A stretch of 64,000 nt of DNA. Origin: Thiohalobacter sp. IOR34. Lineage in GTDB: Bacteria > Pseudomonadota > Gammaproteobacteria > Thiohalobacterales > Thiohalobacteraceae. Positions within the stretch are counted from its first letter, which is position 1. Every line of letters begins with the position of its first letter. Both the position numbers and the translations under genes were made by a program. The notes under the pieces are model-generated. The model made no database searches and was not told the origin of the DNA. It was given only the letters and a program-made list of their open reading frames with translations. Positions 6,374 to 57,645 of the stretch are shown piece by piece. The stretch lies in assembly GCF_030406045.1 (NCBI RefSeq), contig NZ_CP128988.1, positions 1,833,438-1,897,437 on the forward strand, written 5' to 3'.

Positions 6374-8101
6374 TCAGTCGCCGCCCGGCTGGCCATGGCG
6401 CATCACCCCGCCATGCGCCACGGCAGCCGTCGTGCCGCCGAAGGAGAAGGCATGGGCGAGATACTCGGGGGCGCTGCGGCCGAGGCGTTGATAGAGATTG
6501 GCCAGCTGCAAGCGGAACAGGCGGTCGAAGTCCTGCACCGTGCCCGAAGGGTTGTAGTCACCGAACCACCAGAACCAGTCGGAACCCTCGCAGATGGCCA
6601 GTTGCTCCTCGGCGGCACGCAGGGTCTCGGCATCCAGCCGCCCCTCGGCAACGGTCTCGTCGAAGACCCGCTTGGCCTCGGCCAGCATCTCCCAGCCACG
6701 GTTCTTGTCGGCATCGCCGATCCAGGTGGAGAAGGTGCCATAGACCCAGCTCCCCGCCACCAGCCGGCTCAGTGGCGCGGCCTCCACCCCGACATCCAGG
6801 CAGGCGCTGAAGGTGGTGAGATTGAGCCGCGGGTGCTCCACCAGCTTCTGGTAGAGGGTACTGAGGAAGTAGTAGCCGTTCTCCGGGTAGTATTCCCAGG
6901 CGTTCTCGCCATCGAGGATGATCGACACCACCCGTCGCTCCACGGGCAGGCTGCCCTCGGCGGCAGCGATGTTCTCCAGATGATGAATCAGATTGGCAAC
7001 GGCATCGTCCGCATGCCAGTCGGAATAGGTGAAGCCGATGGCATCGGACAGGCCGTCGTCACGGAAGAAACAGGCCAGTTGTCTGCCTTGCAGATGATAG
7101 GGCCGGAACAGGCTGTCTTCCCGGCGCTGCTCCTGCTGGTGCGGGTCGCAGCGCAGGCTGTTGAACAGCACGCTCTCGCCGCTGGCCGCCCACTGGAAGC
7201 CGTGCTCCTCCAGCAGTTCCAAGGTCGCCTCGCTGACGCCCCCCTCCGAGGGCCAGCAGCCGCGGGCCTCGAAACCGAAATGGCGCCGGAAACAGCGCTG
7301 CGCCTCGCGCAGATGCCACTCGGCCCGTTGCCGACCACCGGGATAGGCCTCGATGCTGGGCAGACTGACCTCCGGCATGGCCTCGCGTGCCGCGTGCAGG
7401 TCGAGGAGCAGGGGCACGATGGGATGGGCATAGGGCGAGACCGAGAGCTCGATGCGGCCAGCTTCGGCCAGCCGACGGTAGCGTTCCACCAGGCCACCCA
7501 GCAACTCGCCGATGATGCCGAGCAGTTCGCGCCGTTCCTGCAAGCTGTAGCCGCGCGCCCTGTCCTGCAGGGCCTGGATGCGCCGGTCGCTGCGGCGCAC
7601 CGTCTCGCCCAGCCAGGCCAGGTGGTACCAGACCAGGATATCGGTGAAGAACTGCTCGTCGAGATAGCCCAGGGTCTGCGGATGTTCGATACACCAGCGC
7701 GCCATGTCCGCCAGCGCACGGTAGGCGGGGAAGCGGTCGATGAACCGTTTCTCGTTGGCGCGCAGGCAGGCGCGCAGCAGATGCAGCCGCGATTCGTCGT
7801 CGACCGGCGGCGCCGGGTGGGCCAGGCTGTTCAACAGGCTGTCGTGGATCACCCCGCCGCCATGCAGGAAACCCTGCACCTGGGCGGCATAGTCGTCCAG
7901 CTGATCGAGCAGCACCGGGGCGAAGTTGACCACCGCGCGCGCCTGCGGATTGGCCTCCAGATGGGCGGCCATGTCGACATAGTCCTTGATGGCGTGCAGA
8001 TAGGTCCAGGGCTGTTCGTACTGGCCGTTGTTGGTATCGCGGTACTGCGGCTGATGCATGTGCCACATCAGCACCACGTTGAGACGCCCCTCAGCGGACA
8101 T
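6374..8101 (-). CDS. Glycoside hydrolase family 57 protein
   Basis: A 575-residue GH57 enzyme, cytoplasmic by lack of a signal peptide. Region 1 is [10 protein letters not shown] near residues 13-22 (HxHQP motif). The nucleophile region is [16 protein letters not shown] (Glu) and the acid/base region is [16 protein letters not shown] (Asp). GH57 covers alpha-amylases, 4-alpha-glucanotransferases, amylopullulanases and branching enzymes, so exact activity cannot be fixed. A glgB of the GH13 type is also present nearby, which argues against branching enzyme. The start overlaps the last 11 nt of glgC, implying translational coupling. Family assignment is firm; substrate is inference. Confidence 0.9.
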
Positions 8102-9359
8102 GGTGCAGTTCCTGTCCCAGCATCTCCGGCGTGACCAGCACCACGCCCTGGGGCGTCAGGTGGAAACGCCTGGCGTCCTCTTCGGCATTCTCGCCGATGA
8201 CCGTGCCGGGAGGGATATGGCAGCCCTTGTCGACCACGGCGCGCCGCAGCCGCGCCCCTTCGCCGATCTGCACGTTGGGCAGCACCACGCTGTCCCGCAC
8301 CTGGGCATAGGAGTGCACCTTGACGTTGGAGAACAGCAGCGAATGGTGCACCGCGGCGCCGGAGATGATGCAGCCGCCGGAGACCATGGAGTCCACCGCC
8401 ATGCCGCGCCGGTCGTCGTCGTCGAACACGAACTTGGCCGGCGGCAGCTGTTCCTGGTAGGTCCAGATCGGCCACTTCTCGTCATACAGGTTCAGCTCCG
8501 GGGTCACACCGATCAGCTCCAGATTGGCGGCCCAGAAAGCATCCACGGTACCCACGTCGCGCCAGTAGGCCTGCTGCCCGGTGCTGGGATCGCGGAACGG
8601 ATAGGCCAGCACCTGATGCTTGCGGATCACCCGCGGAATGATGTCCTTGCCGAAATCATGGCTGGAGATGTCGTCATCGGCATCACGGATCAACTGTTCG
8701 AAGAGGAACTTGGTGTTGAACACGTAGATCCCCATCGATGCCAGTGCAACATCCGGCCGTCCGGGTATAGCCTCCGGCTCATCCGGCTTCTCGGTGAAAC
8801 GCATCACCCGTTTGTCCGCATCCACCGACATCACACCATAGGCCCTGGCCTGTTCCAGGCCGACCTCGATGCAACCGACGGTCATGTCGGCATTGTGCTG
8901 CACGTGCTCGGCGATCATCGGCCCGTAGTCCATCTTGTAGATATGGTCACCGGCCAGGATCAGCACGAAGTCCGGATTGTGCAGACGGATGATGTCCAGG
9001 TTCTGGTAGACGGCATCGGCCGTGCCCTGGTACCAGGATGTCTCGATGCGCTGCTGCGCCGGCAGCAGTTCGACGAACTCGCCGAACTCGCCACGCAGGA
9101 AGTTCCAGCCGCGATGGATGTGCTGGATCAGCGAATGGGCCTTGTACTGGGTGATGACGCCGATGCTGCGGATGCCGGAATTGAGGCAGTTGGAAAGAGG
9201 AAAGTCGATGATCCGGAACTTGCCGCCGAAGGGCACCGCCGGCTTGGCGCGCCACAGGGTCAGCTGCTTGAGCCGGGAGCCGCGCCCGCCGGCGAGGATC
9301 AGGGCCAGGGTGCTGCGGGTCAAGCGGCTGACGAAACGTTGGGTTTGTCCGCTGTTCAT
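8091..9359 (-). CDS. glgC: Glucose-1-phosphate adenylyltransferase
   Basis: Makes ADP-glucose, the glycogen precursor and usual control point. The 422 residues match the E. coli length. The start at 9359 ([16 protein letters not shown]) has a strong CCAGGAGGAACC ribosome site; the frame extends upstream to 9587 without family similarity. Motifs are [51 protein letters not shown] and [17 protein letters not shown]. The C-terminal left-handed beta-helix repeats are visible ([20 protein letters not shown]). It is first gene of the operon and divergent from glgB across a 172-bp spacer. Confidence 0.97.
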
Positions 9360-9531: not shown

Positions 9532-11715
9532 ATGAGTTCAACGCTAGCACATTCCGATGACATCCTGCCCGTCGAACTCGAGCGCATCGCCGAGGCCCGT
9601 CACCATGACCCCTTCGCCATACTCGGCCGGCATCCCTGGGAGGACGGCGAGCAGGTGCTGGTCTACCTGCCGGGCGCGGACCGGGTGCGGCTGCTCGACA
9701 TCGATGCCCCGCTGAGCCGTCTGGGAGATTCCGATTTCTTCCGCTGGCAGGGGCCGGCGGGGCGCCTGCCGGAACGCTATCGGCTGGAATGGCAGGACGC
9801 CCAGGGCAGCCATCAGGGCTACGACCCCTACTGCTTCCCGCCCCAGCTGGCGGACTTCGACCTGCACCTGTTCGGCGAGGGCCGCCACTGGCATGCCTAC
9901 CGCTTCCTGGGCGCCCACCTGACGCGGGTCGACGGCATCTCCGGGGTCTGCTTCGCGGTCTGGGCGCCGAATGCCGAGCGGGTGAGTGTGATCGGCGACT
10001 TCAACCAGTGGGACGGGCGGCGCCATCCGATGCGGGTGCGCGGCGGCAGCGGCGTCTGGGAACTGTTCCTGCCCGGGATGCCGGCCGGCCAGTTCTACAA
10101 GTTCGAGATCCGCCACCGCAACAGCGGCGCCATCCTGGTCAAGAGCGACCCCTACGGCCAGCAGTTCGAGCTGCGCCCCGGTACCGCCGCCCTGGTACCC
10201 GCCCCCACCCAGCACCGCTGGGCCGACGAGGGGTGGATGCTGCAGCGCCGCGACGCGGACTGGCAGCAGCGGCCGATGTCGATCTACGAGGTGCATCTAG
10301 GCTCCTGGCAGCGGGGACCGGACGGCGGTTTCCTCAGCTACCGGGAGCTGGCCGAACGGCTGATCCCCTATGCCGCCGAGCAGGGCTTCACCCATGTCGA
10401 GCTGCTGCCAGTCACCGAGCATCCACTGGATGCTTCCTGGGGCTACCAGACCACCGGCTATTTCGCACCGACCAGCCGCTTCGGCAGTCCTGACGACTTC
10501 CGCTTTTTCGTCGACCAGTGTCACCAGCACGGGCTCGGCGTGATCCTCGACTGGGCACCGGCGCATTTCCCACGCGATGCCTTCGCCCTGGCCGCCTTCG
10601 ACGGCGAGCCACTGTACGAACACGCCGACCCGCGACGCGGCGAACACCGCGACTGGGGCACGCTGATCTTCAACTACGGCCGCAAGGAGGTGAAGAACTT
10701 CCTGCTCGCCAGCGCCGTCTACTGGCTGGAGGAATTCCACATCGACGGCCTGCGTGTCGATGCCGTGGCCTCGATGATCTACCTCGACTACTCCCGCGAG
10801 GAAGGCGACTGGCTGCCCAACCAGTACGGCGGCAACGAGAACCTGGAAGCCATCGACTTCCTGCGCGAACTCAACCAGGTCACCCACGGCCAGCACCCTG
10901 GCTCGGTGATGATCGCCGAGGAATCCACCGCCTGGCCACAGGTCACCCGGCCGCCCTGGGTCGGCGGCCTGGGCTTCTCCATGAAATGGAACATGGGCTG
11001 GATGCACGACACCCTGGACTACCTGAGCAAGGACCCGGTGTTCCGCCATTTCCACCACGACCAGCTCACCTTCGGCCTGCTCTATGCCTTCACCGAGAAC
11101 TTCGTGCTGCCCTTCTCGCATGACGAGGTGGTGCACGGCAAGGCCTCCATGCTGCACAAGATGCCCGGTGACGAGTGGCAGCAGTTCGCCAACCTGCGCC
11201 TGCTGTACAGCTACCAGTGGACCTACCCCGGCAAGAAACTGCTGTTCATGGGCTCGGAATTCGGCCAGCGCCCGGAATGGAACTTCGACGCCAGCCTGGA
11301 ATGGCCGGCGCTGGACTACCCGCCGCATGCCGGGGTACAGGCCCTGGTCCGCGACCTGAACCGCATCTACCGGGAACAGCCGGCGCTGCACCGCCACGAC
11401 TTCAGCGCCGAGGGCTTCGAGTGGATCGACTGCCACGACGCCGCCCAGTCGGTGATCAGCTACCAGCGCCGGGATGGCGAGGAACGGATCCTGGTGGTAC
11501 TCAACTTCACCCCGGTGGTCCGCCACGACTATCGCCTAGGCGTCCCCCGATCCGGCTACTACCGGGTGCTGCTGAACTCGGATTCGGAATACTACGGTGG
11601 CAGCAACATCGGCGAGGCCGGCGCCCACAGCGAGGACATCCCCTGGATGGGCCATCCCCAATCCATCCGTCTCACCCTGCCGCCGCTCGGTGCCCTGCTG
11701 CTGCGCCTCGACTGA
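9532..11715 (+). CDS. glgB: 1,4-alpha-glucan branching enzyme (GH13)
   Basis: Forms alpha-1,6 branches in glycogen. Starting at the ATG at 9532 the protein has 727 residues, the length of E. coli GlgB; in-frame starts at 9442 and further upstream exist but would add non-conserved residues. It has N1 and CBM48 modules, then a GH13 barrel. Catalytic segments are [18 protein letters not shown] (nucleophile Asp410), [12 protein letters not shown] (Glu463) and [13 protein letters not shown]. The upstream ribosome site is weak. It is divergent from glgC and convergent with mog. Confidence 0.96.
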
Positions 11716-13833: not shown

Positions 13834-14403
13834 ATCGCGGCCTGGAGGCCGCTCCTACAGGCACATTGGACCGCCATGCCCCGCAGGAGCGGCGGCCACG
13901 CCGCGATTGTGGCGGTCAAGCCCATCGCGGCCTGGAGGCCGCTCCTACAGGCATGTTGGGCCGCCAGCCCCCGCAGGCGCGGCGGCCACGCCGCGATTGT
14001 GGCGGTCAAGCCCATCGCGGCCTGGAGGCCGCTCCTACAGGCATGTTGGACCGCCAGCCCCCGCAGGCGCGGCGGCCACGCCGCGATTGTGGCGGTCAAG
14101 CCCATCGCGGCCTGGAGGCCGCTCCTACAGGCACGTTGGGCCGCCATGCCCCGCAGGAGCGGCGGCCACGCCGCGATTGTGGCGGTCAAGCCCATCGCGG
14201 CCTGGAGGCCGCTCCTACAGGCATGTTGGACCGCCAGCCCCCGCAGGAGCGGCGGCCACGCCGCGATTTGGCGGTCAAATCCATCGCGGCCTGGAGGCCG
14301 CTCCTACAGGCATGTTGGACCGCCATGCCCCGCAGGAGCGGCGGCCACGCCGCGATTGTGGCGGTCAAGCCCATCGCGGCCTGGAGGCCGCTCCTACAGG
14401 CAC
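13834..14403. repeat. Tandem array of REP pairs, about 90-bp unit, seven copies
   Basis: The REP motif GCGGCCTGGAGGCCGCTCC begins near 13834, 13924, 14014, 14104, 14194, 14283 and 14373, a period of 90 bp (once 89). Each unit also contains an opposite-facing REP, CAGGAGCGGCGGCCACGCC, so a unit is a BIME-like inverted pair. Units differ at a few positions (GCATGTTGGACC versus GCACGTTGGGCC; GCAGGCGC versus GCAGGAGC). Because 90 is divisible by 3, several frames stay open through it, but no gene is indicated. It fills the gap between the small membrane-protein gene and the amrS stop. Confidence 0.92.
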
Positions 14404-14406
14404 GTT

Positions 14407-15507
14407 TTATACCTCAGGAAAATCCACCAACCGGACCGGCAGGCGCCGCGCCCCCCAGTCGCCGGGCCGCTCCTCGAACACGCCGGCCACCGGTGTGCCA
14501 CAGTCGGCGCACTTGCCGTCGTGAATGTTCCATTCGCTGAGCACGTACCAGTCACGACCGATCAGGACCTTGCCGCAGTTGTGGCAATAGGTGCTCTCCC
14601 CGGCCTTGTCGTGGACATTGCCGGTGTAGGCATAGCGCACGCCGTTCTCGAGGGCGATCTCGCGCGCGCGGACCAGGGTCTGCTGCGGGGTCGAGGGGTA
14701 GTCCAGCATCTTGTAGTCGGGATGGAAGGCGGTGAAGTGCATGGGCACGTCCGGCCCCAGATGCTCGACCACCCACTGGGTCATCTCGTTCAGCTCCTTG
14801 TCCGAATCGTTCTCCCCCGGGATCAACAGGGTGGTGGTCTCGACCCAGACATCGGTCTCCTGCTTGAGGTACTGCAGGGTGTCCAGCACCGGCTGCAGAT
14901 GGCCGCCGGTGATCTTCCAGTAGAAACGTTCGGTGAAGGCCTTGAGGTCGACATTGGCCGCATCCATATGGGCGAAGAATTCCTTGCGCGGCTCCTCGCA
15001 GATGTAGCCGGCGGTCACGGCCACCGACTTGATGCCGCGTTCATGGCAGGCATCCGCCACGTCGATGGCATATTCATGGAAGATCACCGGGTCGTTGTAG
15101 GTATAGGCCACGCTACGACAGCCGAGCTGTTCGGCGACCCGGGCGATCTTCTCCGGTGATGCCTGGTCGGCCAGGGTGTCGGTCTCGCGTGACTTGCTGA
15201 TGTCCCAGTTCTGGCAGAACTTGCAGGCCAGATTGCAACCGGCGGTACCGAAGGACAACACCGGAGTTCCCGGCAGGAAATGGTTGAGCGGTTTCTTCTC
15301 GATGGGATCGACACAGAAGCCGCTGGAACGGCCGTAGGTGGTGAGTACGATCTTGCCGCCCTGGTTGGCGCGTACGAAACAGAGTCCGCGTTGGCCCTCG
15401 TGCAGCTTGCAATAGCGGGGGCAGAGGTCGCACTGCACCCGCTTCTCGTCCAGTCGATGCCAGTAACGGGTCTCGACCGTGTTCTCGGCGATCAGTTCTC
15501 TGCTCAT
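14407..15507 (-). CDS. amrS: AmmeMemoRadiSam system radical SAM enzyme
   Basis: A 366-residue radical SAM protein of the PflA-like group. The cluster motif is CNLACKFC (Cys91, Cys95, Cys98). Extra cysteine pairs flank it: CDLCPRYC at residues 26-33 and a C-terminal CHNCGK...CADCGTP ribbon. The start at 15507 has a GGAGGG site six bases upstream; an in-frame ATG at 15528 is less well placed. It is divergent from the genes for the Memo-like and AMMECR1-like proteins, which complete the conserved three-gene set. The reaction is unknown. The gene ends immediately beside the 90-bp REP array. Confidence 0.93.
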   Translation of the reverse strand: MSRELIAENTVETRYWHRLDEKRVQCDLCPRYCKLHEGQRGLCFVRANQGGKIVLTTYGRSSGFCVDPIEKKPLNHFLPGTPVLSFGTAGCNLACKFCQNWDISKSRETDTLADQASPEKIARVAEQLGCRSVAYTYNDPVIFHEYAIDVADACHERGIKSVAVTAGYICEEPRKEFFAHMDAANVDLKAFTERFYWKITGGHLQPVLDTLQYLKQETDVWVETTTLLIPGENDSDKELNEMTQWVVEHLGPDVPMHFTAFHPDYKMLDYPSTPQQTLVRAREIALENGVRYAYTGNVHDKAGESTYCHNCGKVLIGRDWYVLSEWNIHDGKCADCGTPVAGVFEERPGDWGARRLPVRLVDFPEV

Positions 15508-15679
15508 GACAGCCCTCCCCTCCGGCATCGCGCATGGCAGCACAGCCGTGCCGACCATACCATTATCGGGAAGTTGAGGGCGGCAACGGGATTTCTCAAG
15601 CCTGGGGACTTGCCCGAGTCACCTGCATGAAGCCCCCTCGGCCTTGAAAGCGGACGCCGGCACTCCGATATTCTCAATT

Positions 15680-15710
15680 ATTAACCCGGCAACTAAATAT
15701 GCCGTGTTAA
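15680..15710. repeat. Solo half-copy of the 1902-2097 palindromic end
   Basis: TTAACCCGGCAACTAAATAT followed by GCCGTGTTAA matches the end of the 1902-2097 element with few changes. It directly abuts the dispersed element that starts at 15713, so two repeat families are nested or adjacent here. Confidence 0.5.
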
Positions 15711-15712
15711 GA

Positions 15713-15888
15713 ACCCGGATATTGCACCAAGGATTCGATGCTCAGGGCGAGGCTGCCTTGCCAGCCTCGGCCTGACATCGAACAGGCACAAACTGTAACA
15801 GGGCGCAATTGCTCGCAGAAGGAATCACTGCCTTGATAACTACCGGAAAAATTACGCATTCAAGGCCGCCTTCGTGCAATATGCGGGC
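15713..15888. repeat. Dispersed palindromic element, copy 1
   Basis: It runs from ACCCGGATATTGCACCAAGG to an inverted end CCTTCGTGCAATATGCGGGC. It contains the family core (GCCTGACATCGAACAGGCAC then AAACTGTAAC). Its right arm (AATTACGCATTCAAGGCCGC) is almost the same as the arm of copy 5 at 53774 in reverse. It fills the divergent spacer between amrS and the Memo-like gene, which otherwise shows nothing notable in 15508-15680. Confidence 0.8.
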
Positions 15889-15921
15889 GAGCACCGGCCC
15901 GACCCGCAGGGAGCCATTGCC

Positions 15922-16707
15922 ATGACCATCCGCCCCCCCGCCGTTGCCGGGGCCTTCTACCCCGATGACCCGCAGGAACTGCACCAGATGCTCCTCGGTT
16001 TCCTCGCCGAGGTGCCACGCGCCGCGAGCGAGGCGCCGAAGGCGATCATCGTGCCCCATGCCGGCTACATCTACTCCGGACCGATCGCGGCCCAGGCCTA
16101 TGTCCGCCTGCTGCCCGCCCGCGAGCGCATCCGCCGGGTGGTGCTGCTTGGGCCCGCCCACCGGGTGCCGATCCGCGGCCTGGCGGCGAGCAGCGCCGAC
16201 GCCTTCCGCACGCCGCTCGGCGACGTGCCCCTGGACAGGGCCGCCATCGACACCCTGCTCGACCTGCCGCAGGTCCAGCTGCGCGACGACGCCCACGCCC
16301 TGGAACACAGCCTGGAGGTACAACTGCCCTTCCTGCAGGAGGTACTGGACGATTTCGCGCTGGTACCGCTGGTGGTCGGCGACGCCAGCGACGCCGAAGT
16401 GGCCGAGGTGCTGGAACGGCTCTGGGATGGCCCCGAGACCCTGATCGTGATCAGCTCCGATCTCAGCCACTATCACGACTACGCCACGGCCCAGGCCATG
16501 GACCGCGCCACTTCCCAGGCCATCGAGGCCCTGGCGCCGGAACAGATCGCCCAGGAACAGGCCTGTGGCCGCATCCCCGTGGCCGGACTGCTGCAAGCGG
16601 CCCGCCATCACGGCCTGCAGGCACACACCGTCGACCTGCGCAACTCCGGCGACACTGCAGGTCCCCGCGACCAGGTAGTGGGTTATGGTGCCTATGCCCT
16701 CCAGTGA
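15922..16707 (+). CDS. amrB: AmmeMemoRadiSam system protein B (Memo-like)
   Basis: A 261-residue member of the MEMO1 family, related in fold to non-haem-iron dioxygenases. Family signatures are PAVAGAFYPDDPQELHQML, VPHAGYIYSGPIAAQAY, VVLLGPAHRVP, EHSLEVQLPFLQEVL and ISSDLSHYH, carrying the conserved histidines. I chose the ATG at 15922 because it precedes the conserved start and has an AGGGAG site; a start at 15874 would lie inside a dispersed repeat. It overlaps the next gene by 23 nt, indicating coupling. Function in bacteria is not established. Confidence 0.93.
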   Translation: MTIRPPAVAGAFYPDDPQELHQMLLGFLAEVPRAASEAPKAIIVPHAGYIYSGPIAAQAYVRLLPARERIRRVVLLGPAHRVPIRGLAASSADAFRTPLGDVPLDRAAIDTLLDLPQVQLRDDAHALEHSLEVQLPFLQEVLDDFALVPLVVGDASDAEVAEVLERLWDGPETLIVISSDLSHYHDYATAQAMDRATSQAIEALAPEQIAQEQACGRIPVAGLLQAARHHGLQAHTVDLRNSGDTAGPRDQVVGYGAYALQ

Positions 16708-17263
16708 GCGGCGCCTCTCCGACGCCCAGCGCGCGGTGTTGCTGGCCGTCGCCCGGGACGCCATCCGCCACGGGCTGGAGACCGGCCAGCCATTGCAGCT
16801 GCGGCCGGAGGACTTCGATCCGCTGCTCCAGCAACCGGGGGCAGCCTTCGTCACCCTGCAGTCGCGGGGCCAGCTGCGCGGCTGCATCGGCAGCCTGGAG
16901 GCCCACCGGCCGCTGGTCGTCGACGTCGCCGAGAACGCCTTTGCCGCCGCCTTCCGAGACCCGCGCTTCCCGCCGCTGTCGCCGGCTGAATTCGACGACC
17001 TGGAGATCCACATCTCGGTGCTTTCGCCACCGACGCCGGTCGAGTTCTCCAGCGAGGCCGATCTGCTGTCCCGGTTGCGGCCGGGCATCGACGGCCTGAT
17101 CCTGGAGGACAGGGGCCGGCGCGGTACCTTCCTGCCGTCGGTCTGGGACCAGCTGCCGGACCGCGAACAGTTCTTGCAACACCTGAAGCTGAAGGCCGGT
17201 CTGCCACCCGACCACTGGTCCGACAGCCTGCGTGTCTGGCGCTACACCACCGAATCCTTCTAG
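16685..17263 (+). CDS. amrA: AmmeMemoRadiSam system protein A (AMMECR1-like)
   Basis: A 192-residue AMMECR1-domain protein. The invariant LRGCIGS motif is present (QLRGCIGSLEAHRPLVVDV), followed by AAFRDPRFPPLSPAEFDDLEI and GRRGTFLPSVWDQLPDR. The start overlaps the Memo-like gene; an internal ATG at 16694 is an alternative. The stop codon TAG at 17261-17263 is itself the first three bases of dispersed element copy 2. Gene fusions and neighbourhoods in other genomes link this family to Memo and the radical SAM enzyme, but no reaction is known. Confidence 0.93.
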   Translation: MVPMPSSERRLSDAQRAVLLAVARDAIRHGLETGQPLQLRPEDFDPLLQQPGAAFVTLQSRGQLRGCIGSLEAHRPLVVDVAENAFAAAFRDPRFPPLSPAEFDDLEIHISVLSPPTPVEFSSEADLLSRLRPGIDGLILEDRGRRGTFLPSVWDQLPDREQFLQHLKLKAGLPPDHWSDSLRVWRYTTESF

Positions 17264-17420
17264 CCCGGATATTGCACCAAGGCGGCGTGCATGAAGGGGG
17301 TTCGTGCTGTAATACAGGGACGATATGGCCAGGAAAAGCCCCCTGGGCGGGTTACGGTTTGTGCCTATTCGAATGCCAGGCCGACTCTGGCTGCGCGTCC
17401 TGGGTGCAATATCCGGGCTA
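17261..17420. repeat. Dispersed palindromic element, copy 2
   Basis: The ends are TAGCCCGGATATTGCACCAA and, inverted, GGGTGCAATATCCGGGCTA. Internal arm AAGGGGGTTCGTGCTGTAAT and core GGTTTGTGCCTATTCGAATG are shared (reverse-complemented) with copy 3. The remaining 17421-17529 shows no gene. Confidence 0.82.
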
Positions 17421-17529: not shown

Positions 17530-17605
17530 ATCGCGGCCTGGAGGCCGCTCCTACGACAACACATTGTACCGCCATGCCCCGTAGGAGCGGCCTCCAGGCC
17601 GCGAT
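17530..17605. repeat. REP pair (BIME-like)
   Basis: Two facing copies of the REP motif, ATCGCGGCCTGGAGGCCGCT at 17530 and its reverse complement ending GCCGCGAT at 17605, separated by 26 bp. It lies just downstream of the GYF-like gene stop. Confidence 0.85.
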
Positions 17606-19913: not shown

Positions 19914-20162
19914 TAGCCCGGATATTGCACCAAGGATTCGATGCTCAGGGCAAGGCTGGCAAAGCAGCTTGGGTGATCGTCCGAAAAGTCATAGCCGTTG
20001 CTATGGCTTGAGGAGGATCACCCAAGATGCGAAGCCAGAGTCGGCCTGACATCGAATAGGCACAAACCGTAACCCGCCCAGGGGGCCTTTCATGGCCATA
20101 TCGTCACTGGATTACAGCACGCCCCCTTTCATGCGCGCCGCCTTGGTGCAATATCCGGGCTA
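19914..20162. repeat. Dispersed palindromic element, copy 3
   Basis: It runs from TAGCCCGGATATTGCACCAA to GGTGCAATATCCGGGCTA. It has an internal stem (CTTGGGTGATCGTCC with GAGGATCACCCAAG) and the core GCACAAACCGTAACCCGCC. Its right arm, CAGGGGGCCTTTCATGGCCA to CGCCCCCTTTCATG, matches the arm of copy 2. The last 34 bp encode the tail of the DUF2802 protein. Confidence 0.85.
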
Positions 20163-42245: not shown

Positions 42246-42738
42246 ATCGCGGCCTGGAGGCCGCTCCTACGGGGCATGGCGGCACCCTGGCAGGAGCGGC
42301 CTCCTGGCCGCGATCGAGGTGGCATCACCCGCCGTTGACGGAAACGGCGATGGCCACGAAACCCGCGAAACCCGCGAAAATCGATGGCCACGGAAGGCAT
42401 TGTAGGAGCGGCCTCCAGGCCGCGATCGAGGTGGCATCGCCCGCCATTGACGGAAACGGCGATGGCCACGAAACCCGCGAAACCCACGAAAATCGATGGC
42501 CACGGAAGGCATTGTAGGAGCGGCCTCCTGGCCGCGATCAAGGTGGCATCACCCGCCATTGACGGAAACGGCGATGGCCACGAAACCCGCGAAACCCGCG
42601 AAAATCGATGGCCACGGAAGGCATTGTAGGAGCGGCCTCCTGGCCGCGATCGAGGTGGCATCGCCCGCCATTGACGGAAACGGCGATGGCCACGAAACCC
42701 GCGAAACCCACAAAAAAGATTGATGGCCACGGAATCCA
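42246..42738. repeat. Composite tandem array: REP plus GGCCACGAAA repeats, 112-bp unit
   Basis: After a REP pair at 42246-42314, four units follow, with REP starts near 42290, 42402, 42514 and 42626, giving a 112-bp period. Each unit has one REP (GTAGGAGCGGCCTCCAGGCC or the CTGG variant), a spacer GATCGAGGTGGCATCGCCCG, and a GGCCACGAAACCCGCGAAAC segment of the family seen at 658-821. It includes no gene. With copy 4 it occupies the whole fliK-fliJ gap. Confidence 0.9.
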
Positions 42739-42775: not shown

Positions 42776-43018
42776 TAGCCCGGATATTGCACCAAGGATT
42801 CGATGCTCAGGGCGAGGCTGGCAAAGCAGCTTGGGTGATCGTCCGAAACCGTTGCTATGGCTTGAGGAGGATCACCCAGGATGCGAAGACAGAGTCGGCC
42901 TGACATCGAACAGGCACAACCTGTACCCCGCCGGGAGGAGCCATTTGCGAGCCTCCCGGCCTTGTATGTCAGCCTGCACGCCGATCACGCGCGCCGCCTT
43001 GGTGCAATATCCGGGGCA
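42776..43018. repeat. Dispersed palindromic element, copy 4
   Basis: It runs from TAGCCCGGATATTGCACCAA to GGTGCAATATCCGGGG. The left arm has the GGGTGATCGTCC/GGAGGATCACCC stem of copy 3, and the core is GACATCGAACAGGCACAACC. The right arm (GGAGGAGCCATTTGCGAGCC, then TTGTATGTCAGCCTGCACGC) matches copy 6. It ends 8 bp before the fliJ stop codon. Confidence 0.85.
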
Positions 43019-53087: not shown

Positions 53088-53262
53088 TAGCCCGCATATT
53101 GCATCAGGCCCCCGGCTGATGGCGTGGCCGGACCCGCCGGGGATCGCGGCCTGGAGGCCGCTCCTACGGGGCATGGCGGCACAATGTGGTAGGAGCGGCC
53201 TCCAGGCCGCGATTGGCGTAGTGCCGACAGGCTGCTAGCCCGGATATTGCACGAAGGCGGCC
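53088..53262. repeat. REP pair flanked by two solo ends of the dispersed element
   Basis: A facing REP pair (GCGGCCTGGAGGCCGCTCC at about 53146 and its reverse complement up to 53213) lies between two same-direction element ends: TAGCCCGCATATTGCATCAG at 53088 and TAGCCCGGATATTGCACGAA at 53236. The second arms are missing. The rest of the fleQ-fliT spacer shows no gene. Confidence 0.75.
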
Positions 53263-53773: not shown

Positions 53774-54024
53774 TAGCCCGCATATTGCACGAAGGCGGCC
53801 TTGAATGCGTAATTTTTCCGGTATTCATCAAGGCAGTGATTCCCTATGCGAACAATTGTGCCCAGTTACAGTTTGTGCCTATCCGAGTTCAGACCAAATC
53901 TGGCGTCGCATTCTGCCCGATCCCCCTTGAACCCTAGCTACGGCTATGCTTCGGCGGACGATCGAACAGACTGCTTGGCCAGATTCGCCCTGAAATTCGA
54001 ATCCTTCGTGCAATATCCGGGCTA
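53774..54024. repeat. Dispersed palindromic element, copy 5
   Basis: It runs from TAGCCCGCATATTGCACGAA to CCTTCGTGCAATATCCGGGC and TA. The left arm (GGCCTTGAATGCGTAATTTT, then CAAGGCAGTGATTCCC) is nearly identical to the arm of copy 1 in reverse. The core is GTTACAGTTTGTGCCTATCC. Read on the minus strand, its terminal TAG is the fliS stop codon. The preceding 53615-53773 holds only an imperfect inverted repeat (GTCGCGTG with CACGACGC). Confidence 0.82.
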
Positions 54025-57396: not shown

Positions 57397-57645
57397 GCCC
57401 GGATATTGCACCAAGGATTCGATTCCCAGGGCGAAGCTGGCAAAGCAGGTTGGTCGATCGCCCGCGGAAGCATAGCCGTAGCCATGGTTCAAGGGCGATC
57501 GGCCAGGATGCGCAGCCAGATGCGTCCTGAGATCGAATAGGCGCAAAGTGTATCCCGCCGTGAGGAGCCATTTGCGGGCCTCCCGGCCTTGTATGTCAGT
57601 CTGCACGCCGATCATACGGGCCGCCTTGGTGCAATATCCGGGTTA
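57395..57645. repeat. Dispersed palindromic element, copy 6
   Basis: It runs from TAGCCCGGATATTGCACCAA to GGTGCAATATCCGGGTTA, between the two flagellin genes. The left arm stem reads TTGGTCGATCGCCCG with CGGGCGATCGGCCA-like AAGGGCGATCGGCCAG. The right arm (GAGGAGCCATTTGCGGGCCT, TTGTATGTCAGTCTGCACGC) matches copy 4. Confidence 0.85.

Follow-up and report, generated by a model that had tools for sequence, protein, structure and literature searches.

The window analysed here, a stretch of 64,000 nucleotides from Thiohalobacter sp. IOR34 (contig NZ_CP128988.1, positions 1,833,438 to 1,897,437 of the forward strand), carries between its positions 14,407 and 17,263 a typical, intact member of the catalogued AmmeMemoRadiSam system, consisting of genes for a radical S-adenosylmethionine (SAM) enzyme, a Memo-family protein and an AMMECR1-family protein. 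It is well supported by their co-conservation, by the layout of the genes and by natural gene fusions that the three proteins serve one pathway, and we regard this as very likely. A single substrate for all three is most likely, and the chemistry suggested below would combine a radical step with an iron-dependent step. The copy in the window is ordinary and its kind is already known; being intact, compact and encoded in a small genome, it is one of many equivalent copies and represents a well-tested example rather than a new system. MEMO1 and AMMECR1 are conserved human proteins to which no reaction has been assigned, and bacteria that contain either the whole set or none of it provide a simple setting for finding this reaction.

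The three-gene module and its conservation

The module consists of the following features:

14407..15507, minus strand: radical SAM enzyme of the AmmeMemoRadiSam system (TIGR04337, 665 bits; the listed open reading frame (ORF) extends to 15558)
15508..15921, no strand: divergent intergenic region between the radical SAM and Memo genes, read from the sequence
15922..16707, plus strand: Memo-family protein (AmmeMemoRadiSam protein B), 261 amino acids (TIGR04336, 278 bits; the listed ORF starts at GTG 15874)
16685..17263, plus strand: AMMECR1-family protein (AmmeMemoRadiSam protein A), 192 amino acids (TIGR04335, 220 bits)

The original prediction of a complete and intact set is confirmed: reading of the sequence revealed no internal stops in any of the three ORFs, which lie where they had first been placed, and each product scores well above the cut-off of its NCBIfam model. 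The radical SAM protein reaches 665.3 bits with TIGR04337 over the full length of the profile (cut-off 220; positions 1-349 of 349), the Memo protein 277.7 bits with TIGR04336 (cut-off 26; positions 1-269 of 270) and the AMMECR1 protein 220.4 bits with TIGR04335 (cut-off 99; positions 2-175 of 175), and the Pfam matches (Radical_SAM, Memo and AMMECR1) agree. The source genome, a single contig of 2.96 Mb, contains one TIGR04337 match. For the radical SAM enzyme a start at ATG 15507, which is residue 18 of the listed ORF, is likely and preferred; residues 1-18 of the listed ORF have a predicted local distance difference test (pLDDT) value below 50 in the structure model. For Memo, ATG 15922 is the likely start and is preferred over that of the longest ORF. 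With the first ATG taken as the AMMECR1 start, the Memo and AMMECR1 genes overlap by 23 bases (16685-16707).

One line of evidence for a common pathway is co-conservation, which was analysed in 184 genomes drawn evenly from the class. Memo was found in 96 and AMMECR1 in 94 of them, while TIGR04337 matched in 110, in 97 of these above its cut-off and with the sister classes described below included. A radical SAM enzyme was counted as full-length canonical at 500 bits or more with TIGR04337, a threshold of our own, and this is reached in 92 genomes; G026, G076, G099 and G106, which have fragments or a divergent copy, are excluded from this number. Memo, AMMECR1 and such a full-length canonical radical SAM gene occur together in 90 of the 184 genomes, none of the three in 88, and 6 genomes are mixed. 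Within the own family of Thiohalobacter sp. IOR34, in which the radical SAM enzyme and AMMECR1 were the two genes searched for, 10 of 11 genomes contain the full-length radical SAM enzyme together with AMMECR1; the exception, G220, shows 28 residues of the radical SAM enzyme and no AMMECR1, in an assembly of 570 contigs that is 7% contaminated. A lack of co-conservation in relatives had been named beforehand as the result that would refute the prediction, and the opposite was found. The near all-or-none presence in the sampled relatives therefore means that the three genes very probably work together.

The gene layout points in the same direction. The radical SAM and Memo genes are divergent and less than 1.5 kb apart in 72 of the 92 class genomes with both, as in the window, and in the remaining ones they are on different contigs (15) or elsewhere on one contig (5). 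Memo and AMMECR1 matches lie in tandem, less than 300 bases apart, in 86 of 94 class genomes. A broader set comprises 80 loci, the top 80 among at least 591 confirmed relatives; it covers several phyla and leans to close relatives, and in 47 of its loci Memo and the radical SAM gene diverge. In 51 loci the sequence extends 2.5 kb or more to either side, and 31 of these show a divergent Memo-AMMECR1 pair, 5 of them as one fused frame; one has both genes otherwise placed, in three Memo but not AMMECR1 is nearby, and in 16 neither gene is. The Memo gene of one locus (L084), 26 bases outside the overlap limit, is probably divergent as well. Expressed over all loci having both partner genes, the natural Memo-AMMECR1 fusion occurs in 5 of 43. 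Compared with the catalogued system, the window copy thus has essentially full-length members above their cut-offs and the common divergent layout; the only difference noticed is an inverted-repeat element within its divergent region.

Several genomes weigh against a strict partnership. G085 contains Memo and AMMECR1 without a radical SAM match, in an assembly of 560 contigs, and Memo occurs without a full-length radical SAM enzyme in G026 (a 32-residue fragment), G076 (two pieces) and G099 (a divergent copy with 272 bits). AMMECR1 is missing while Memo is present in G149 and G160, and G106, counted within the 88 genomes lacking the set, has a radical SAM fragment with no partner; several of these exceptional class genomes are fragmented assemblies. 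The nearer relative G224 (75% complete) has AMMECR1 and no radical SAM match. Among 14 control genomes, Memo and AMMECR1 are both present in four, Thermus composti has Memo without AMMECR1 and Haloferax volcanii AMMECR1 without Memo. A genome-wide partner search was applied to 31 of the 80 loci, namely the 28 without Memo nearby and the three with Memo and no AMMECR1 nearby (L060, L084 and L090); 30 of these genomes were searched, with L108 left out. Memo was found somewhere in the genome in 26 of the 30, which corresponds to 23 of the 27 without Memo near the radical SAM gene, and AMMECR1 in 25 of the 30, so that 4 genomes beyond the class sample show no Memo and 5 no AMMECR1. One of the Memo matches is weak, with 30 bits where the cut-off is 26, and two of those to AMMECR1 cover the model in part and stay under its cut-off. 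Eukaryotes retain MEMO1 and AMMECR1 but apparently lack the radical SAM enzyme. Because of the partial sets in the control genomes and in eukaryotes, the three genes are not obligate everywhere, and the partnership is looser outside the class sample.

Two loci found in these searches deserve separate mention. In G149, which is 99% complete, the radical SAM and Memo genes lie at G149:C30:2657-4591 and AMMECR1 has no match. A Gemmatimonadota locus (L046) carries two TIGR04337-like genes back to back, at 8100-9119 on the minus strand and 10004-11077 on the plus strand. One of the two is canonical, the other shares 38% identity with the window protein, and this genome encodes Memo and AMMECR1 at other places.

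Metal ligands, cysteines and folds of the three proteins

The Memo protein of the window matches human MEMO1 with an E-value of 9e-27. Its residues H46, H80 and C215 align with positions 46, 78 and 241 of the chain in structure 7kq8, which are H49, H81 and C244 of MEMO1 (offset 3), the residues through which iron is bound in the human protein according to a study on MEMO1 (PMC11081632). These three residues as well as H129, D180 and H183 show no variation across 52 Memo sequences, comprising the window copy and 51 of the 52 loci with Memo (the truncated L072 was dropped). Judged from this alignment, the window protein keeps the metal ligands of human MEMO1, and these form a candidate metal site. 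In AMMECR1, which matches the archaeal structures 1wsc, 1vaj and 1zq7, residues F55, L64, G66, C67 and G69 are the same in all 44 sequences compared (43 of 44 loci and the window).

A structure model of the fusion protein from locus L087 (mean pLDDT 95.3, predicted template modelling score (pTM) 0.82) joins both folds in one chain. Its Memo half is nearest to human MEMO1 (Z 34.9) and then, among others, to extradiol dioxygenases (Z 13.0-16.7), and its AMMECR1 half matches archaeal AMMECR1-family structures (Z 18.0-24.5). In the ranking of fold matches TK2203 (Z 17.6) comes after the archaeal structures and before the dioxygenases. The Memo fold is thus shared with the LigB-type extradiol dioxygenases; they differ in the third iron ligand, for which these enzymes are reported to use Glu and MEMO1 to use Cys (PMC11081632). 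Measured against the window copies, conservation is highest in the radical SAM enzyme, whose median identity is 73.5% compared with 61.9% for Memo and 56.7% for AMMECR1 and which ranks first in 43 of 43 loci with all three, although these loci were picked by radical SAM similarity, which may account for part of the difference.

Additional copies of the partner genes were observed in a few genomes. A second, divergent Memo-type frame of 418-483 amino acids (110-131 bits) occurs at G192:C156:4421, G198:C206:728 and G200:C271:25091, in each case with a canonical Memo also present, and two adjacent AMMECR1-type frames, one of them weak, lie at G042:C2:2287-3483.

The radical SAM enzyme contains the CxxxCxxC cluster motif of its superfamily (C108, C112 and C115; numbering follows the listed ORF). 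Extra cysteine pairs at both ends had been pointed out originally, and the closer reading bears this out and sharpens it to four cysteines near each terminus, C43, C46, C50 and C60 in a C-x2-C-x3-C-x9-C arrangement and C325, C328, C350 and C353. Since the triad and the eight extra cysteines, eleven in total, are invariant in 47 of 47 aligned homologues (a selection from about 110 at hand), one of them 38% identical, the extra cysteines are, as judged from the alignment, a trait of the whole family and not peculiar to the window copy.

A structure model of the enzyme (pLDDT 89.0, pTM 0.89) was compared with known folds, and PflA was the best match, aligning over 224 residues with Z 21.9 and a root-mean-square deviation of 2.4, compared with Z 16.2 for the next family. 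In a profile search against solved structures, PflA and, marginally, MoaA were the sole hits, so that PflA is the nearest relative with a solved structure both by fold and by sequence. This raises the question whether the enzyme is an ordinary activase of a glycyl-radical enzyme, with Memo and AMMECR1 as incidental neighbours. The likeness is confined to the radical SAM core, as the fold match spans residues 75-312 only and both cysteine-rich ends are additions beyond it, and the window protein reaches 665 bits with TIGR04337 and 65 with the PflA model. Moreover, the glycyl-radical family PF01228 occurs in 3 of the 184 class genomes, in two of them just at the cut-off, and neither PF01228 nor PF13597 (NRDD) was found in the source genome, so that a PflA-type protein partner was not found there. 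Since these two family models detected no glycyl-radical enzyme in the source genome, an ordinary activase was rejected as a candidate; the near all-or-none partnership with Memo and AMMECR1 argues in the same direction, and this explanation is largely refuted and hardly credible any longer. The radical SAM enzyme is PflA-like in fold, yet probably not an ordinary activase.

PflA acts on a protein, and the radical SAM enzyme could likewise be a maturase that modifies Memo or AMMECR1, which would then perform the chemistry. The near all-or-none co-conservation fits such a role, the highest conservation of the radical SAM enzyme in all 43 loci would be expected if it has to recognise several partners (with the loci again chosen by similarity to that very enzyme), and PflA, its nearest fold relative, has a protein target. 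Memo and AMMECR1 do occur without the enzyme, apparently in eukaryotes and, among the class genomes, in the 560-contig assembly G085, which argues against a maturase, and we consider this explanation unlikely.

A proposed reaction scheme and a possible link to iron

We tentatively favour a scheme, short of an even chance, in which a PflA-like radical step is combined with an iron-dependent step of Memo. In the first step, as fold and motif suggest, a [4Fe-4S] cluster bound by C108, C112 and C115 would cleave SAM to the 5'-deoxyadenosyl radical, which would abstract a hydrogen from the substrate, and the cysteine-rich ends of the enzyme may hold one or more further metal sites. In the second step Memo, with its extradiol-dioxygenase fold and Fe(II) held by H46, H80 and C215, would perform a second redox step on the product or on a precursor. 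AMMECR1 would bind or pass the substrate beside Memo, an assignment suggested by the gene overlap and the natural Memo-AMMECR1 fusions. A small molecule or a nucleobase-type substrate is a likelier target than a glycyl-radical enzyme. In line with the original statement that the product of the system is not established, the literature searched yielded no established product.

Two results count against this chemistry or at least fail to pin it down. Human MEMO1 showed no dioxygenase activity on several standard substrates, as stated in the study mentioned above (PMC11081632). Furthermore, no neighbour other than Memo and AMMECR1 recurs widely within up to 10 kb per side of the radical SAM gene in the 80 loci; the next ORF clusters occur in 19 of the 80 loci, with mixed members at scattered positions, and in 6 of the 80.

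The lack of a shared neighbour also bears on the proposal that the module modifies a nucleobase, in tRNA or as a free nucleotide, or an isoprenoid. Burroughs and colleagues are said to have proposed nucleobase or isoprenoid modification from genome context in 2019. In a later publication by this group, Burroughs et al. 2019 is cited for 'Memo-Ammecr1 systems' (PMC7159879). Such a role would fit RlmN, QueE and TYW1, radical SAM enzymes acting on RNA or base precursors, being among the fold neighbours of the window enzyme, yet many others are found there too, and the 80 bacterial loci, whose minor clusters are not annotated, provide no wide neighbour beside Memo and AMMECR1 to support it. On balance we judge a nucleobase or isoprenoid substrate to be rather improbable, if conceivable. 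The later fold neighbours, which include NifB, RlmN, QueE, viperin and others at Z of about 14-16, were too mixed, and a substrate inference from them was dropped.

The human protein has been studied for its binding of iron and copper and in cell motility, and is not known to have a radical SAM partner. A further explanation is that the module serves iron handling, with Memo binding or reporting iron and the radical SAM enzyme making or consuming an iron ligand or repairing an iron site. It draws on the iron bound by human MEMO1 and on a yeast homologue with iron-linked genetic interactions, both as described in the MEMO1 study (PMC11081632), and on a sister class of radical SAM enzymes, which was the one unexpected lead of the analysis and lies outside the window.

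In 23 of the 184 class genomes another radical SAM gene scores 170-243 bits with TIGR04337, in 21 of them above the model's cut-off (220); membership was defined by score alone, and two members (G094 and G160) match further into the model than the others. Eight of the 23 loci were inspected (L111-L118, from G115, G069, G120, G107, G052, G031, G041 and G166). In all eight, a member of one cluster of small proteins is encoded within about 2 kb of the sister-class gene; the two members scanned were of the yggX type (Fe(2+) trafficking), and three of the eight have in addition ATP-grasp and IscA-type genes nearby, the latter an Fe-S gene (one member of each was scanned). The N-terminal C-x2-C-x3-C-x9-C motif of the window enzyme is common to all eight, whereas the C-terminal CxxC pairs are present in none of them (L116 being a shortened frame). 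The sister class is found more often where Memo is present: 20 of its 23 genomes have Memo, versus 96 of 184 overall (p 0.0003 in a Fisher test that ignores relatedness and thus overstates independence). The TIGR04337 cut-off would label most sister-class genes as AmmeMemoRadiSam, even in genomes without Memo or AMMECR1 (G052 and G173).

For the iron explanation it counts that the sister class, with the same N-terminal motif, lies near a yggX-type gene in eight of eight loci. This link belongs to the sister class and not to the window enzyme, though, and yggX lies beside mutY in four of the eight loci, which is a common arrangement, so that the association may partly be a chance of position. 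Beside the canonical module, no recurring iron gene was seen in the 80 loci and Fur-like sites were not enriched; we hold a role of the module in iron handling to be quite improbable. Even more doubtful, and no better than a long shot, is a specific form of it in which the canonical enzyme and the yggX-linked sister would constitute one lineage, marked by the four-cysteine site common to their N termini, whose task would be to make or repair a cofactor or ligand related to iron, with Memo as its iron-dependent partner; if true, this would account for the iron phenotype that MEMO1 has in human cells.

Apart from the sister class, a third radical SAM group scoring about 314-350 bits with TIGR04337 was observed at G001:C36:16224, G109:C2:117621, G048:C80:7149, G218:C1:297999 and G221:C42:9291, in genomes in which the canonical copy is also present.

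Repeats and the regulatory region

Two repeat families are found in and around the module:

15713-15888, 17263-17418, 19916-20160, 42778-43016, 53776-54022 and 57397-57643, no strand: inverted-repeat elements resembling miniature inverted-repeat transposable elements (MITEs), with ends GCCCGGATATTGCACC, from end matches
13834-14400, 17530-17605, 42246-42650 and 53143-53213, no strand: palindromes of the repetitive extragenic palindromic (REP) type, GTAGGAGCGGCCTCCAGGCCGCGAT, from the sequence

The original description of a divergent arrangement around a repeat holds, as a probable decayed inverted-repeat element, 15713-15888, lies in the divergent region between the radical SAM and Memo genes. 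The 16-base element end GCCCGGATATTGCACC occurs 135 times in forward and 135 times in reverse orientation genome-wide with at most one mismatch. Six elements of 156-247 bases in the window are bounded by paired ends with at most three mismatches, in addition to one pairing of outer ends over 785 bases, and four of the six have TA flanks on both sides. Both ends of the element at 15713-15888 are within three mismatches of the element ends; its right end is degenerate and it has no TA flank. It is probably a decayed copy of the genome-wide MITE-like element. A clean element with terminal inverted repeats (17263-17418) starts on the last base of the AMMECR1 stop codon. On the other side of the module, a 90-base REP-type tandem array with seven copies of the palindrome runs from 13834 to about 14400, stopping just a few bases beyond the stop codon of the radical SAM gene, and a 22-base part of the palindrome occurs 736 times genome-wide with at most one mismatch. 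The inverted-repeat element has no evident link to the system and is not taken as a functional part of the module, and neither this element nor the REP array points to the function of the module.

No shared operator was found among 49 divergent regions and that of the window, and FNR-, Fur-, NsrR-, IscR- and LexA-like patterns were no more frequent there than in the top-scoring one of 20 simple shuffles. TATAAT surpassed the shuffles by one, with 11 of the 50 regions versus at most 10. A promoter and terminator scan was uninformative. Downstream of AMMECR1, the window continues with FliK- and FlhB-like genes.

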